From Pseudomonas thermotolerans DSM 14292 (GTDB lineage Bacteria > Pseudomonadota > Gammaproteobacteria > Pseudomonadales > Pseudomonadaceae), in contig NZ_KB822614.1 of assembly GCF_000364625.1 (NCBI RefSeq), positions 1-64,000 of the forward strand: 64,000 nucleotides of DNA. Reading direction: 5' to 3'. The notes beneath the pieces were generated by a model. That model did no database searches and had not been told where the DNA came from. It was given only the letters and a program-made list of their open reading frames with translations. Each line of letters starts with the position of its first letter. The first letter of the stretch is position 1. A program made the position numbers and the translations under genes. This document shows, piece after piece, positions 22,470 to 29,400 of this stretch.

Positions 22470-23444
22470 TCAACTGGAGGGCGAGTCAGACAGATGGCGG
22501 CGCAGGAAGTCGAGGATGCCGTCGATCAACTGGCGGGCCAGCGGTAGTTCGGGCTGGTCGTAGGAGGCGAGCTGCTTCCGGAGATCCGCCGGGACGATGC
22601 GCAGCACGTGGTTCATGCCGGGGATCAGCAGCAGCTCGGCGTCCGGGCGGGCGGCCTTGAGCGCTTCGGCGTCGGCCACACTGACCTGGATGTCATGGTT
22701 GCCTTGGACGATCAGCGCGGGGATGCGCAGGCGCGCGAAGGCGGCCGCCGGGTCGTTGCGGAACAGGGAGATCAGGTAGGGCTGCACGCTGGGGCGGAAC
22801 AGCACCTCCAGCTCGACCGGTACCCTGTCCACGGTCCGACCGGCCTGGAGGCTGGCGATCAGCGCCTCGCTCTGCGCCAGCAGGAGCGGTGGCAGGCGGC
22901 TGCGCAGCTGCTCGCGGAGCACCTGGTCGATGGGCCGCGCGGCGCCGGCAATGGACACCAGTGCGGTGGCGCCGGCGCGCTCGGCGGCCAGGGTGGCGAT
23001 CAGCGCGCCCTCGCTGTGGCCAATCAGCACCAGCGGCCCGAAGCGAGGGTCGGCGGCCAACAGGCGGCTCCAGGCCACCACGTCGTCCACGTAGCCATCC
23101 ACCGACAGCTGGCGCTCGTCCGGCTCGGCGGCGCGGCTGGCGGCGATGCCGCGCTTGTCGTAGCGCAGCGTGGCGATGCCCTGGGTGGCCAGCGCCCGAG
23201 CCAGGCGTTTGAGGCTGTCGTTGCGTCCAGCGAAGGGATTGTTGCCGTCGCGGTCGGTGGGCCCGGAGCCGGCCACCAGCAGGGCTATCGGCACCGGCTG
23301 GTCGCTCTGCGGCAGCAGCAGGGTGCCGTGCAGCACGCCGTTGCCGGTGTCCAGGTCGAGCGGCCGGTTGAGGACGGTGAGCGGAGCGGCGCTGGCCAGG
23401 CCGGAAAGGAGGAAGGAAAGGCTCAAGAGGAATGCTCGCAGCAT
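22470..23444 (-). CDS. Secreted alpha/beta hydrolase (serine esterase/aminopeptidase type)
   Basis: 324 residues from ATG 23444. A cleaved signal peptide (about 1-19, ending GLASA) indicates export. Features: LLVAGSGPTDRDGNNP (about 56-70), the characteristic oxyanion region of this YqiA/BAAT-like group; LRYDKRGIAASRA; nucleophile Ser144 in LIGHSEGALIA; Asp in QGNHDIQVS; His in PGMNHVLR. The triad is complete. Likely a periplasmic esterase; substrate unknown. Divergent from aroC. Confidence 0.85.
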   Translation of the reverse strand: MLRAFLLSLSFLLSGLASAAPLTVLNRPLDLDTGNGVLHGTLLLPQSDQPVPIALLVAGSGPTDRDGNNPFAGRNDSLKRLARALATQGIATLRYDKRGIAASRAAEPDERQLSVDGYVDDVVAWSRLLAADPRFGPLVLIGHSEGALIATLAAERAGATALVSIAGAARPIDQVLREQLRSRLPPLLLAQSEALIASLQAGRTVDRVPVELEVLFRPSVQPYLISLFRNDPAAAFARLRIPALIVQGNHDIQVSVADAEALKAARPDAELLLIPGMNHVLRIVPADLRKQLASYDQPELPLARQLIDGILDFLRRHLSDSPSS

Positions 23445-23561
23445 GCTGGGGAAACCTGCCTTGGATGGCGGGGCGGGCCCAAGGTTCGTGGATGAACTGC
23501 CTCGGCGCCACGGGTATACTCCGAGCCCCTGAGATCCTGGCTGATTTTGCGGAGCGTTTCG

Positions 23562-24653
23562 ATGTCCGGCAACACTTACGGCAAGCTGTTCACTGTCACC
23601 ACCGCCGGCGAGAGCCACGGCCCGGCCTTGGTCGCCATCGTCGACGGCTGTCCGCCGGGGCTGGAACTAAGCGCCGCGGACCTGCAGCGCGACCTCGACC
23701 GCCGCAAGCCGGGCACCAGCCGCCACACCACCCAGCGCCAGGAGCCGGACGAGGTGGAGATTCTCTCCGGGGTGTTCGAGGGGCGGACCACCGGTACGCC
23801 CATCGGCCTGCTGATCCGCAACACCGACCAGAAGTCCAAGGACTACTCGGCGATCAAGGATCTGTTCCGTCCGGCCCACGCCGACTACACCTACCACCAC
23901 AAGTACGGCATCCGCGACTACCGCGGCGGCGGTCGCAGCTCGGCCCGCGAGACCGCCATGCGGGTGGCTGCCGGGGCCATCGCCAAGAAGTACCTGGCCA
24001 GCCAGGGGATCGTCGTGCGCGGCTACATGAGCCAGCTCGGCCCCATCGAGATTCCCTTCAAGACCTGGGACAGCGTCGAGCAGAACGCCTTCTTCAGCCC
24101 CGACCCGGACAAGGTGGCGGAGCTGGAGGCCTACATGGACCAGCTGCGCCGCGACCAGGATTCGGTGGGGGCGAAGATCACCGTGGTCGCCGAGGGTGTG
24201 CCGCCGGGGCTCGGCGAACCGATCTTCGACCGCCTGGACGCCGAGCTGGCCCATGCGCTGATGAGCATCAACGCGGTCAAGGGCGTGGAGATCGGCGCCG
24301 GCTTCGCCAGCGTCGCCCAGCGTGGCACCGAGCACCGCGACGAGCTGACCCCGGAGGGATTCCTGTCCAATAACGCCGGCGGCATTCTCGGCGGCATCTC
24401 CAGCGGTCAGCCGATCGTCGCCCATCTGGCGCTCAAGCCCACCTCCAGCATCACCACCCCGGGGCGTTCCATCGATGTCCACGGCAACCCGGTGGAGGTG
24501 ATCACCAAGGGCCGTCACGACCCTTGCGTGGGCATCCGTGCCACCCCCATCGCCGAGGCCATGATGGCCATCGTGCTGATGGATCACCTGCTGCGCCACC
24601 GCGCGCAGAACGCCGAGGTGCGCGTCGCCACGCCGGTGCTGGGCCAGCTGTGA
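23562..24653 (+). CDS. aroC: Chorismate synthase
   Basis: 363 residues from ATG 23562, with GGAG 9 bases upstream. It converts 5-enolpyruvylshikimate-3-phosphate to chorismate, using reduced FMN. All signatures are present: [18 protein letters not shown] (about 16-33), [33 protein letters not shown] split about 107-126 with the catalytic His region, and SSARET. A TATACT (23515-23520) upstream is a possible -10. Next is an MFS gene 70 bases on. Confidence 0.98.
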
Positions 24654-24723
24654 GCCCGGTGCTGCCATTTCCGGCCAGCCGCTGGGTGGGGCATCATGAG
24701 CTGACCCGCGTGGCCTGACGCCC

Positions 24724-25887
24724 ATGCACCGGCTTCCCTACTGGCGGCTGTCCAGCTTCTACCTGTTCTACTTCTCCCTGCTTGGGGCCACCGCGCCCTT
24801 TCTGGCGCTGTACTTCGACCATCTGGGCTTCTCCAGCGCGCGCATCGGCGAGCTGTTGGCCATCCCCATGCTGATGCGCTGCCTGGCGCCCAACCTGTGG
24901 GGCTGGCTGGGCGACCGCAGCGGCCGGCGCCTGGCCATCGTGCGCCTGGGCGCGCTGGGCACCCTGGCCTGTTTCGCCGGGATCTTCCTCAGCCACGACT
25001 ACCTTTGGCTGGCCCTGGTGATGGCTAGCCACGCCTTCTTCTGGCACGCCGTACTGCCGCAGTTCGAGGTGATCACCCTGGCCCACCTGCGCGAGCAGGC
25101 GGCGCGCTACAGCCAGATCCGCCTGTGGGGCAGCATCGGCTTCATCCTCACGGTGATCGGCCTCGGCCAACTGTTCGAACGGTTCAGTCTGGACGTCTAC
25201 CCCGGGGTGCTGCTGGGCATCATGGCAGGCATCCTGGTCAGCAGCCTCTGGGTGCCCAACGCCCAGCCGGAAGCCCGTGGCGCCGTGGAAGGCGAGGGCG
25301 GCTTCCTCGCCCAGCTGCGCCGCCCCGGGGTGCCGGCCTTCTACCTGAGCGTGGTGCTGATGCAGCTCGGCCACGGGCCCTACTACACCTTCCTGAGCCT
25401 GCACCTGGAGAGCCTCGGCTATGTCCGCGGGCTGATCGGTCAGCTGTGGGCCCTGGGGGTGGTCGCCGAGGTGCTGCTGTTCCTGGTGATGAACCGCCTG
25501 CTGACGCGCTTCTCGCTGCGCCAGGTGCTGCTCGCCAGCTTCCTGCTCGCCGCCCTGCGCTGGCTGCTCCTGGGCAACCTCGCCGAGTACCTGGCCGTAC
25601 TGCTGTTCGCCCAGCTGCTGCATGCGGCCACCTTCGGCAGCTTCCATGCCGCGGCCATCCACTTCGTGCAGGGCAGCTTCGGCGCACGCCAGCAGGGCCA
25701 GGGCCAGGCGCTCTACGCAGCCACCGCCGGCATCGGCGGCGCGCTCGGCGCGCTCTATGCCGGCTACAGCTGGAGCAGCCTGGGCCCGGCCTGGACCTTC
25801 GCCATCGCCAGTCTCACCGCCCTGGCCGCAGCCGTTATCATCGCCAATCGCCTTCCCCGATCCGCGTCCCGAGAGCCACGCCCATGA
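24724..25887 (+). CDS. MFS transporter, HcaT/LacY-like group
   Basis: 387 residues with about 12 predicted membrane helices. The start LSSFYLFYFSLLGATAPFL and the loop NLWGWLGDRSGRR (about 57-70) resemble the MFS_1_like group containing HcaT. It is a secondary transporter of the inner membrane; the substrate is unknown. The stop overlaps the start of the acireductone-dioxygenase homologue (ATGA), so the two are coupled. I recall the P. aeruginosa equivalent lying between aroC and methionine-salvage genes. Confidence 0.84.
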   Translation: MHRLPYWRLSSFYLFYFSLLGATAPFLALYFDHLGFSSARIGELLAIPMLMRCLAPNLWGWLGDRSGRRLAIVRLGALGTLACFAGIFLSHDYLWLALVMASHAFFWHAVLPQFEVITLAHLREQAARYSQIRLWGSIGFILTVIGLGQLFERFSLDVYPGVLLGIMAGILVSSLWVPNAQPEARGAVEGEGGFLAQLRRPGVPAFYLSVVLMQLGHGPYYTFLSLHLESLGYVRGLIGQLWALGVVAEVLLFLVMNRLLTRFSLRQVLLASFLLAALRWLLLGNLAEYLAVLLFAQLLHAATFGSFHAAAIHFVQGSFGARQQGQGQALYAATAGIGGALGALYAGYSWSSLGPAWTFAIASLTALAAAVIIANRLPRSASREPRP

Positions 25888-26429
25888 GCCGCCTGTCCGT
25901 CTACCATGTCTCCGCCCTCGACCTGCCCAACAAGGTGCTCGGCCACCTCGAGGACATCGCCGCCACCCTGGCCGAGGTGGGCGTGCACTTCGCCCGCCGC
26001 CAGCCGACGCAGGCGGTGGCGCCGAGTGTCGGCGTGGACGAGCTGCTTGCCGCCTACCGCCCGGCCATCGACGCCCTGCTGGGTGAGCGCGGCGCCAGCG
26101 GCTTCGAGCTGGACAGCCTGACCCGCGAGCATCCGCAGCGCGACGAGCTGCGCGACGAGCTCCTCGCCGAGCGGCAGGGCGACCGGGACGAGGTGCGCCT
26201 GGTGCTCGCCGGCCGCGGGCAGTTCGCCCTGCACATCGAAGATCACGTCTACGCGGTGCTTTGCGAGCGCAACGACCTGCTGGTGATCCCCGCCGGCACC
26301 CGCTACTGGCTTGACTTGGGCGAACGGCCGCATTTCGTCGCGGTGCGCCTGCTCGACGCCGCCGCTGCCGGGCAGCTGCAGCTCACCGGCGACGACATCG
26401 CCAGCCGCTTGCCGCGCCTCGACGACTGA
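25884..26429 (+). CDS. Acireductone dioxygenase (MtnD) homologue lacking metal ligands
   Basis: 181 residues, the same length as pseudomonad MtnD, and clearly homologous: LPNKVLGHLEDIAATLAEVGV (14-34), LAGRGQFALHIEDHVYAVLC, NDLLVIPAGT. True MtnD binds Fe or Ni through H-x-H-x3-E and a later His (EHxH...DEVR and TxHWFDMG). Here those positions read Arg97, Gly99, Glu103 and Tyr141, so three of four ligands are lost although the frame is intact. It cannot work as a normal dioxygenase. mtnB and mtnC, its usual neighbours, are absent; it overlaps the MFS gene and is followed by a small membrane protein gene. It is either decaying or has taken a new role. Confidence 0.85.
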   Translation: MSRLSVYHVSALDLPNKVLGHLEDIAATLAEVGVHFARRQPTQAVAPSVGVDELLAAYRPAIDALLGERGASGFELDSLTREHPQRDELRDELLAERQGDRDEVRLVLAGRGQFALHIEDHVYAVLCERNDLLVIPAGTRYWLDLGERPHFVAVRLLDAAAAGQLQLTGDDIASRLPRLDD

Positions 26430-26506
26430 GCCGGATCCGGTCGGCCGAACGTGCAGCGGGACAGGGCGGTCTATGCTGGGGTGAAAACCGCGACAGGAGC
26501 ATCACC

Positions 26507-26698
26507 ATGTTGGACTTCGGCGGCAGCCTGGTCGGTCTGATCATCCTGGCCCTGGACATCTGGGCCATCCTCCACGTGCTGAAGAGCTCCTCGGAGACCG
26601 GCATCAAGGTGCTGTGGATCCTGCTAATCGTGCTGCTGCCGCTGCTCGGCCTGGTGCTCTGGGCGGTGGCCGGTCCGCGCGGCAACCTGCGCTTCTGA
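26507..26698 (+). CDS. Small PLDc_N-domain membrane protein
   Basis: 63 residues with a good SD (CAGGAG, about 8 bases upstream). Two hydrophobic segments (about 5-25 and 33-55) enclose the short loop LKSSSETGIKVLW, the pattern of the phospholipase D-nuclease N-terminal (PLDc_N) membrane hairpin. No phospholipase domain follows, as in many free-standing members. Function unknown. A terminator lies just downstream. Confidence 0.83.
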   Translation: MLDFGGSLVGLIILALDIWAILHVLKSSSETGIKVLWILLIVLLPLLGLVLWAVAGPRGNLRF

Positions 26699-26733
26699 GG
26701 AAGGGCCCGGCCGGCACTCGCGGCGAGGGTCCG

Positions 26734-26760
26734 GAAGCCCCTAGAATGGGGCTTCTTTCC
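26734..26760 (+). terminator. Terminator between the PLDc_N gene and pdxB
   Basis: An 8-bp perfect stem GAAGCCCC / GGGGCTTC (26734-26741, 26748-26755) with a TAGAAT loop and a short T run. It ends 12 bases before pdxB, so pdxB probably has its own promoter upstream or relies on read-through. Confidence 0.65.
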
Positions 26761-26771
26761 GGGAGACTGCG

Positions 26772-27902
26772 ATGCGAATCCTTGCCGACGAAAACATTCC
26801 CTTGGTCGATGCCTTCTTCGCGGGCTTCGGCGACATCCGCCGGCTGCCGGGCCGCTCCATCGACCGTGCGGCGCTGGAGGGCGTCGACGTCTTGCTGGTG
26901 CGCTCGGTGACGCGCGTCGACCGCAACCTGCTGGCCGGCAGCCCGGTGCGCTTCGTCGGCACCTGCACCATCGGTACCGACCACCTGGATCTCGACTATT
27001 TCGCCGAGGCCGGCATCGCCTGGTCCAGCGCGCCGGGCTGCAATGCCCGTGGCGTGGTGGACTACGTGCTGGGCAGCCTGCTGGCGCTGGCCGAGCGCTG
27101 TGGCGCGGACCTGTCCAAACGCCACTACGGGGTGGTCGGCGCCGGGCAGGTCGGTGGCCGCCTGGTGGAGGTGCTCAAGGGACTGGGCTGGCAGGTGCTG
27201 GTCTGCGACCCGCCGCGCCAGGCCGCCGAGGGCGGCGACTTCGTCAGCCTCGAGACGATCCTCGCCGAGTGCGACACCATCAGCCTGCACACTCCGCTGG
27301 ACGCCGGCACCCGCCACCTGCTGGACGCCGAGCGCCTAGCCCGCCTGCGCCCCGGCGCCTGGCTGATCAACGCTAGCCGCGGTGCGGTGGTGGATAACCG
27401 GGCGCTGCGCACGCTGCTGGAAAGCCGCGACGACGTGCAGGCGGTGCTGGACGTCTGGGAAGGCGAGCCGGAGGTGGACGTCGCCCTGGCCCGGCTGTGC
27501 CGCCTGGCCACCCCGCATATCGCCGGTTACAGCCTGGAGGGCAAGCTGCGCGGCACCGCGCAGATCTACCAGGCGTTCTGCTCCCACCTCGGACAGTCCC
27601 CGCAGGTGCAGCTGGACGAACTGCTGCCGCCGGCCTGGCTGTCCGCCATCGAGCTGGATGCTGGCACGCCGCCGGACTGGGCGCTGGCCACCCTGTGCCG
27701 GGCGGTCTACGATCCGCGCCGCGACGACGCCGACTTCCGCCGCTCGCTGTACGACGATCCGGAAACCCGCCGCCTGGCCTTCGACGCCCTGCGCAAGGGC
27801 TACCCGGTGCGCCGCGAGATCGACGGCCTGCGCGTGCGGCTGAACGGCGACGCGCCGGAGCTGGCGCGGCTGGTCCGGGCGCTGGGCGCGACCCTGCTGT
27901 AG
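26772..27902 (+). CDS. pdxB: Erythronate-4-phosphate dehydrogenase
   Basis: 376 residues, normal for PdxB. It oxidises 4-phosphoerythronate in the DXP-dependent pyridoxal-phosphate pathway. A D-2-hydroxyacid dehydrogenase fold with NAD motif [15 protein letters not shown] (121-135) and catalytic residues Arg203 ([10 protein letters not shown]), Glu232 (EGEPEVD) and His249 (TPHIAGYS), the last in the family-specific HIAGYS. The C-terminal dimerisation domain (about 290-376) distinguishes it from other family members. GGGAGA precedes the start. Confidence 0.97.
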
Positions 27903-27926
27903 CGGGCCGCGCCCTCGGGGGGCGGC

Positions 27927-28106
27927 TCAGCGCCGTTCGCGAGGCGCCCCCATGGAGTTCTTGTCCAGCTTGCGGCAGGCGCGCCGCACCATCTGCTCGG
28001 TGATGGGGATTTCCCGGCCCTGGGCGTCGATGATCGCGCCACCGGTGTCCTTGTCCTGTGGGCGGGAAGCAGCGTCGGGGCCGCTGCTGGCAGTGCGCTT
28101 GCTCAT
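27927..28106 (-). CDS. Conserved small basic protein of unknown function
   Basis: 59 residues. ATG 28106 follows AAAGGAGA at about 7 bases, a strong ribosome site. The sequence begins MSKRTASSGPDAASRPQDKD and continues with GGAIIDAQGREIPITEQMV and RRACRKLDKN. It is hydrophilic and basic at the C-terminus, possibly partly disordered. I believe similar short proteins are widespread in Pseudomonas, but I know no function. It lies between pdxB and the ATP-NAD kinase-like gene on the opposite strand. Confidence 0.75.
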   Translation of the reverse strand: MSKRTASSGPDAASRPQDKDTGGAIIDAQGREIPITEQMVRRACRKLDKNSMGAPRERR

Positions 28107-28265
28107 GGCCGGTCTCCTTTCTCATCAGGCGATGGCTTCAGTCTAGGGCCTGCGGATGACCGCCGGGTGACAGGTGACGGCGCGCGGGGCGCGACGGGCA
28201 GTCAGGGCGACGAACGGCGTCGCGCGACGAGGGTGCGGTCCGGTGCCGCTGATCACGAGGGAGAC

Positions 28266-29400
28266 ATGACTTTTCATCTGGGCCTGATCATCAATCCGCT
28301 GGCCGGCCTCGGCGGGCCGGCGGCGCTCAAGGGCAGCGACGGGGTGGTCGCCGAGGCACTGGCGCGCGGCGCCGCACCGCGAGCCGCGGAACGCACGCGC
28401 ATCGCCCTGGAGTGCCTGCGGGCAGTGGCCGAGCGCATCGAGTTTCTGACCTTTCCCGGAGCCATGGGTGGCGACCTGCTCGCCGAACTGGGCTTTCGCC
28501 ACCGCCTGGTCGGCTCTCTGCACGGCGCCACCACCAGTGCCGCGGACACCCGCCGCGCGGTGGCCTGCCTGCAGGACGCAGGGGTGGCGCTGATTCTCTT
28601 CGCCGGCGGCGACGGCACCGCCCGCGACGTCTGCGCCGCGGTCCGCGAGGGGCAGCCGGTGCTTGGCATCCCGGCCGGCGTGAAGATCCATTCCGGGGTC
28701 TACGCGATCAGTCCGCGGGCCGCCGGCGAGCTGACCCGCCGTCTGGTGGAGGGCGGCCTGGTGCGCCTGGCCAGCGGCGAGGTGCGCGACCTCGACGAGA
28801 CGGCTTTGCGCGACGGGCGGGTCGCCGCGCGCTGGTACGGCGAGCTGACCGTGCCGGAGGAGGGCGACTTCGTCCAGCAGGTCAAGCAGGGCGGGGTGGA
28901 GTCCGAGGAGTTGGTGCTTGCCGACCTGGCCGCCTGGTTGGAGGACAGCTGGGAGCCGGGCGTGCGCTACGTGTTCGGCCCCGGTTCGACCCTGCACGGG
29001 CTGGCCGCCAGTCTCGGGCTTGAAACCACCCTGCTGGGCGTCGACGTGATCGAGGATGGCCGGGTGCTCGCCCGGGACGTCACCGAGGCGCAGCTGTTCG
29101 AACTGGTCGACGGTCACCCCGGCCTGGCTCCTGGTCACCGCCATTGGCGGCCAGGGCCACATCATCGGCCGTGGCAACCAGCAGATTAGCCCGCGGGTGC
29201 TGCGCGCCATCGGCCTCGACCGACTGCGGGTAGTGGCCACCAAACGCAAACTGAAGACCCTGGAGGGCCGGCCGCTGCTGGTGGACAGTGGCGATCCCGC
29301 GTTGGATGCCGCTTTCCCCGATGCAGTACGGGTCTGGACCGGGTATAAGGAGGAACTGCTGTATCCGGTGGGGCATCTGGACGGCCCGCCCGGGAACTGA
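28266..29400 (+). pseudogene. ATP-NAD kinase-like gene with a frameshift
   Basis: Two overlapping frames together encode a full-length protein of about 378 residues. The first (28266 to about 29120) runs MTFHLGLIINPLAGLGGPAA through the kinase motif LILFAGGDGTARDVCAA (about 113-129) to LFELVDGHPG. The second continues PAWLLVTAIGGQGHIIGRGN to the stop at 29400. The frame changes near 29112-29126; a one-base loss would explain it. Without repair the product loses the last 90 or so residues. It resembles the uncharacterised ATP-NAD/AcoX kinase family. Either a true recent mutation or a sequencing error. Confidence 0.8.

Follow-up and report, generated by a model that had tools for sequence, protein, structure and literature searches.

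The window analysed here is a 64,000-nucleotide stretch of the Pseudomonas thermotolerans DSM 14292 genome (contig NZ_KB822614.1). In it, an mtnD homologue encoding a protein that we call P0001 lies behind aroC and a transporter gene, with the features listed below.

23547..24653, + strand: aroC, the syntenic anchor, on the same strand in 204/204 loci
24724..25887, + strand: MFS_1_like transporter gene, upstream, its end overlapping the mtnD start by 4 bases (ORF, Pfam, spacing)
25884..25887, + strand: ATGA start/stop overlap, at the site where mtnB begins in loci with the pathway (letters, spacing)
25884..26429, + strand: orphan MtnD/ARD homologue P0001, 181 aa, predicted cupin fold, three of four metal ligands lost (ORF, Pfam, 1zrr alignment, AlphaFold2)
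25917..25982, + strand: codons 12-33, N-terminal segment LDLPNKVLGHLEDIAATLAEVG, within the best-conserved stretch of the orphan copies (entropy)
26172..26174, + strand: Arg97, in place of the first metal-ligand His (codon CGG, 1zrr alignment)
26178..26180, + strand: Gly99, in place of the second metal-ligand His (codon GGC, 1zrr alignment)
26190..26192, + strand: Glu103, the ligand position that is kept (codon GAG, 1zrr alignment)
26304..26306, + strand: Tyr141, in place of the last metal-ligand His (codon TAC, 1zrr alignment)

The P0001 reading frame runs unbroken for 181 codons from an ATG start to a TGA stop. The Pfam ARD profile matched the protein across its cupin domain at 68 bits (cut-off 27), while no NCBIfam family matched it at E<=0.001. 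The best sequence match among solved structures was the Klebsiella ARD 1zrr (2.1e-36), and the AlphaFold2 model, a confident cupin with a mean pLDDT of 92.1, likewise had 1zrr as its top PDB fold match (TM 0.83), which predicts an ARD fold. The metal ligands of 1zrr are His96, His98, Glu102 and His140, as given in PMC3765361. These positions, which read H, H, E, H in ARD, align with Arg97, Gly99, Glu103 and Tyr141 of P0001; the HTHGEDE of 1zrr faces RQGDRDE and its final His faces Tyr, and the 3-His/1-Glu metal site of ARD is missing. The codons and the 1zrr alignment confirm the first-pass annotation, which had described a full-length MtnD homologue with R97, G99 and Y141 in which only Glu103 is kept. 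The window itself is one assembly, and a base-calling error is not needed as an explanation because 112 other genomes carry ligand replacements at the same locus.

A working ARD would be expected to receive its substrate from MtnB and MtnC of the same genome. In the 75 contigs of the P. thermotolerans assembly we found one ARD match in all, hence no second true mtnD, and no match to mtnC; the search for mtnB returned nothing over the cut-off and one distant hit below it (6.6e-7). The genome has mtnA (G000:C16:82348-83337, outside the window) and mtnP. From the known steps of the pathway, methionine salvage appears to stop after methylthioribulose-1-phosphate. The first-pass annotation had seen that mtnB and mtnC are missing beside the gene and had proposed to look elsewhere in the genome for them, for mtnA and for a second mtnD; mtnA is there, and none of the other three gave a match over the cut-off anywhere in the assembly.

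Loss of the pathway around a retained mtnD is widespread in the genus. In an evenly drawn sample of 199 genomes, 78 had mtnB over the cut-off. These 78 also had mtnC over it, as did one more, G034, whose mtnB match is split between frames. Both genes are absent from the other 120 genomes, here called orphan genomes. Pfam found an ARD homologue in 196/199 genomes, and a profile search of 36 genomes with no listed Pfam ARD match found one in 35; the exception, G222, had no mtnD homologue. An mtnD homologue is therefore kept in 119/120 orphan genomes, and each copy was read at its locus. With P0001 alone as query, 392/398 genomes gave matches (382/385 of those of high quality). No stop codon was found inside any match listed in the frame test, which left out one orphan copy that crosses unresolved bases. 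At least one ligand is lost in 113 of the 119 copies, in 49 different patterns, while the other six still read HHEH. Three ligands are kept in 40 of the altered copies, 23 of which read HHER (2-His-1-Glu), two in 35, one in 36 and none in 2. The comparison of homologues at the aroC-MFS locus that had been suggested for the window gene thus places its R/G/Y loss among these 49 patterns.

The state of the ligands follows the presence of mtnB and mtnC. We compared 204 loci, made up of the window, 88 stretches of 7-12.5 kb, 35 more, and 80 named loci that are the best 80 matches to alignment A1 and are biased towards catalytic copies. These loci include repeats of the same species, and genome counts were therefore taken from the 199-genome sample. 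HHEH is the reading at every one of the 75 loci where mtnB and mtnC are both full, and also at two loci in which one of the two genes is cut. Where neither gene is present, 113 loci are altered at the ligands and 9 read HHEH; five loci hold a remnant of mtnB only, three of them HHEH and two altered. At all 115 ligand-altered loci, mtnC and full mtnB are absent. Likewise, the pathway is kept in 79 of the 199 genomes, and HHEH was found in 42/42 of those that were read. On a midpoint-rooted tree of aroC and MFS, two linked genes for which horizontal transfer is possible, we counted a minimum of 26 changes in the mtnBC state, 25 in the ligand state and 66 in the exact pattern. Supported independent pairs with unlike mtnBC states numbered 19; in 14.8 of them the ligand state changes with mtnBC, in 0 against it and in 4.2 not at all (median p 6e-5). 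Loss of mtnB and mtnC is thus repeated, and the metal ligands depend on it. The HHEH species without mtnB and mtnC look like early stages of this process.

Where the pathway is kept the gene order is aroC, MFS, mtnB, mtnD, mtnC, and orphan lineages have dropped both flanking genes and kept the middle one. The spacing between MFS and mtnB is -4 in 70/74 loci with the pathway. In 59 of 118 orphan genomes mtnD itself now stands at -4 or -1 from MFS, an arrangement seen in 9 clades out of the 30 that lost the genes, including that of the window. ATGAGC starts both mtnB and mtnD in 44/75 full loci, and a deletion between such short repeats could be the source of the exact junction. The overlap with the MFS gene was correctly reported in the first-pass annotation. 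Four bases long (ATGA), it is the old mtnB junction and for that reason is no evidence of a function in transport. A transporter-linked role was considered and set aside as the main idea; at locus L049 (genome G023) a ligand-altered mtnD lies directly behind aroC with no MFS gene within the 12 kb read. The proposed tie between a metal-free role and the transporter accordingly finds no support. The genes downstream of mtnD differ among seven loci (ORF lists). In the window a small hydrophobic ORF of 63 aa (26507-26698, + strand) lies between mtnD and pdxB; its product resembles a PLDc_N-type membrane protein.

We found that constraint has moved to the N-terminal segment in the orphan copies. 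In catalytic MtnD codons 12-33 are unexceptional: their mean entropy is 0.54 vs 0.36 elsewhere, which places them 107th among 160 windows. The same codons in orphans have a mean entropy of 0.84 vs 1.77 elsewhere, and the 22-residue windows of lowest entropy start at codons 10-15. The orphan segment reads PNKVLTHxEDIAxTLAExG, with PNKVLTHxEDI as its core. K17 is present in 112 of 113 altered orphans, as are L19, H21 and D24, for which the remaining copy has a gap, and further along the protein E128, P136 and G146 are kept in 113/113. In other families of the order none of the 32 distinct ARDs read has the core motif. All 32 lie near mtnB-like and mtnC-like matches and keep their ligands, with one sequence ending ahead of the last ligand. 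The motif was found in both other Pseudomonadaceae genera sampled, in one of them in a ligand-altered orphan (L340).

Taken with the loss of catalytic residues (three of four ligands in the window, at least one in 113/119 orphan genomes), these data lead us to favour the reading that P0001 is a pseudoenzyme kept for a putative second, metal-independent role, and probably one of binding through the N-terminus. We hold this to be the probable answer, with real room for others. The N-terminus is the likeliest place for such binding because the ligand positions are not conserved while the segment is. The Pseudomonadaceae MtnD, with its family-specific N-terminal segment, would have a second job performed through that segment, most likely the binding of another protein rather than catalysis, and this job would already have been present in the catalytic ancestor beside acireductone oxidation. 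Loss of mtnB and mtnC would leave acireductone oxidation without a substrate; the metal site would then be freed from selection and mutate, and the cupin fold and the N-terminal segment would remain under selection. The first-pass annotation had raised reuse of the cupin in a metal-free role, and this is the best reading of the locus.

The orphan cupin might instead have taken up new chemistry or ligand binding, as a metal-independent enzyme or a small-molecule sensor that uses K17, H21 and D24 or pocket residues specific to each clade. These three residues are polar and nearly invariant in orphans, pocket patterns are steady within some clades (QQSH in 6/7, HHER in 21/34), and metal-free cupin epimerases of the RmlC type exist, according to PMC3765361. 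However, the ligand positions vary between clades, as the 49 patterns attest, and 43 sites that are invariant in catalytic copies, including 97, 99, 101 and 103-109, show an entropy of at least 1.5 bits in orphans. We therefore regard a new activity in the pocket as unlikely, if still worth keeping in mind.

The pseudoenzyme reading requires that the protein be under selection. By pairwise Nei-Gojobori estimates the median dN/dS of mtnD was 0.095-0.274 in ten orphan clades, compared with 0.038-0.185 in four catalytic ones. The orphan clades comprise three to 27 loci each, and the estimates for the smallest come from one to six pairs. Purifying selection thus acts on the orphan clades, whose frames are intact. 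The window branch behaves differently, with dN 0.294, dS 0.251 and a ratio of 1.17 (0.52 for codons 12-33 and 1.26 for codons 37-181), compared with 0.09 for aroC and 0.33 for MFS. Judged by rate alone the window copy looks like a gene under relaxed or shifted selection and could pass for decay. No relative with its ligand pattern exceeds 59% identity among the best matches listed from 398 genomes.

The sites retained by the window copy give a different answer. Among the 25 positions with the strongest conservation in other orphans it retains 24, while neutral simulation at rate 0.25 keeps a mean of 14.9 and three higher rates keep 11.2-13.5; 24 kept sites were reached in 0 of 5000 runs at each of the four rates. 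Of the 96 sites that are invariant in catalytic copies, other orphans conserve 25, and 23 of these are kept in the window copy; of the remaining 71 it keeps 37.

These results bear on slow decay, by which the gene would be useless after the loss of mtnB and mtnC and its frames intact since the loss is recent. The branch ratio of 1.17 fits this view, as do the HHEH state of the nearest relatives by aroC, the absence of a homologue from G222, and a probability of about 0.08 that the window copy would have no stop codon by neutral chance at its divergence. Against it stand the 24/25 retained sites, orphan-clade medians of 0.10-0.27 in clades of up to 27 loci, and retention in 119/120 orphan genomes. 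In addition, 5/204 loci have a shortened mtnB remnant and no mtnC yet carry a full-length mtnD. We consider slow decay quite unlikely. P0001 does not qualify as a decaying pseudogene because its frame is unbroken and its conserved sites are kept above the neutral rate. Decay after loss of methionine salvage had been the other suggestion of the first-pass annotation, with normal His residues in close relatives and near-neutral dN/dS as its signs. Part of this stands, since ligands are lost only where mtnC and full mtnB are missing (115/115 loci), the nearest relatives are HHEH and the branch ratio is high; simple decay, however, is rejected by the site test, the clade dN/dS and the retention of the gene.

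Part of the N-terminal conservation could be acting on the nucleotide sequence. At its extreme this would make the 5' part of mtnD a promoter, an RNA element or a start region for the operon, with the protein incidental. At mtnD codons 13-36 four orphan clades have 0.54-0.85 of the expected synonymous changes and a catalytic clade has 0.87, and the 5' end of MFS, used as a control, is less reduced at the same codons (0.71-0.99). The last 36 MFS codons (25777-25884) also show fewer synonymous changes, 0.49-0.74 of expected in 4/5 clades and 0.98 in one, perhaps as a promoter for the downstream gene. However, the control aroC has an equally strong reduction at its own codons 13-36 (0.31-0.85), 117 loci have CAC for His21 and 86 have CAT, residues of the cupin core far downstream are constrained too, and Rfam gave no match over 23000-29000. 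We read the N-terminal constraint as acting mainly on the protein and regard an incidental protein as very unlikely.

That the orphans are altered metalloenzymes, which hold metal through a reduced ligand set and oxidise a different substrate, is hardly credible when one ligand is left in 36/113 copies, none in 2 and Glu103 only in the window copy, although the residues of the HHER set (23/113) suggest that those copies might still bind metal.

A parallel case is offered by MtnA. Its gene matched in 199/199 genomes, 195 of them over the cut-off, and mtnP was over the cut-off in 108 only. Cys166 of MtnA aligns with the cysteine of the TCN/HCN motif in solved MtnA structures, which we take to be the catalytic one. 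We read the MtnA residues in 78 genomes (4 with the full pathway and 74 orphan; loci L351-L430) and found Cys166 lost in 36 of the 74 orphans. It is kept in 4/4 full-pathway genomes and in 28/29 orphans with mtnP, and is replaced by Gly, Ser or Ala in 35/45 orphans without mtnP. By simple count this links loss of the cysteine to loss of mtnP (35/45 vs 1/29, Fisher 6e-11); corrected for kinship, the link came down to 6 pairs, of which 3 go the same way, 0 the opposite way and 3 show no difference, and is not significant (p 0.25). MtnA is 351-369 residues long in 77/78 copies, the exception being L430 (G121) with 240. Two groups of twelve Cys-less genomes gave median dN/dS values of 0.08 and 0.14 for MtnA; the values for two groups with the cysteine were 0.06 and 0.14. 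Cys166 and Asp246 are intact in the MtnA of the window genome, which is at a middle stage of pathway loss.

MtnA is the first candidate partner of orphan MtnD. The two are not strictly tied, because G222 keeps MtnA without MtnD. MtnA is related to the subunits of eIF2B. As a tentative proposal, to which we give well under even chances, MtnA and MtnD of Pseudomonadaceae may form or join a non-catalytic module older than the loss of salvage. Stepwise loss, of mtnB and mtnC and then of mtnP, would make both of them retained pseudoenzymes, MtnD for its N-terminal segment and MtnA as a Cys-less isomerase, perhaps a sugar-phosphate sensor like the eIF2B subunits.

P0001 resembles MtnD/ARD (Pfam PF03079; Klebsiella 1zrr) in homology, in its predicted cupin fold and in occupying the locus position of the catalytic Pseudomonas MtnD; it differs in having three of four metal ligands replaced and in the absence of mtnB and mtnC, whose products make the substrate. 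Pseudoenzymes such as the iRhom pseudoproteases have lost catalytic residues while the protein is conserved. Orphan MtnD is conserved in the same way; unlike in iRhom, the loss in MtnD happened at least 25 times over, in parallel and within one genus, starting from a functional enzyme. The animal ARD ADI1/MTCBP-1 moonlights, with reported non-catalytic binding partners; it too is an ARD but keeps its metal site. We found no bacterial counterpart of this moonlighting ARD in the open-licence literature, nor did we recognise there a report of ligand-less MtnD or Cys-less MtnA in Pseudomonas. RmlC epimerases share with orphan MtnD a cupin fold without metal (PMC3765361) but belong to a different family, and the ligand positions are unconserved among the orphans compared. 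A P. aeruginosa pangenome study states, in a passage that does not touch on ligand-less MtnD or Cys-less MtnA, that four salvage genes occur together in a subset of strains (PMC8382901). Pseudoenzymes are a known kind; our search of the open literature found no account of the repeated loss, of the nearly universal retention across the genus or of what has happened in parallel to MtnA.

A near-core ARD-family gene is very likely unable to perform the ARD reaction in over half of the 199 genomes (113 altered, 120 without mtnB and mtnC). A pathway reconstruction that infers methionine salvage from the presence of mtnD or mtnA would be mistaken in such genomes. At least 25 parallel losses of an active site with the protein kept also amount to a natural experiment that separates a hidden function from catalysis. 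They point to residues worth mutating, and since MtnA has fared alike, a function common to both proteins can be put to a direct test.

Two further cases in Pseudomonadaceae were observed. In another genus of the family, L340 (G434) is an orphan mtnD by aroC and MFS with C, L, Q and H at the ligand positions and the N-terminal motif kept. The genome G518 carries two mtnD copies at separate places (L318/L341 and L342), and the motif is present in both.
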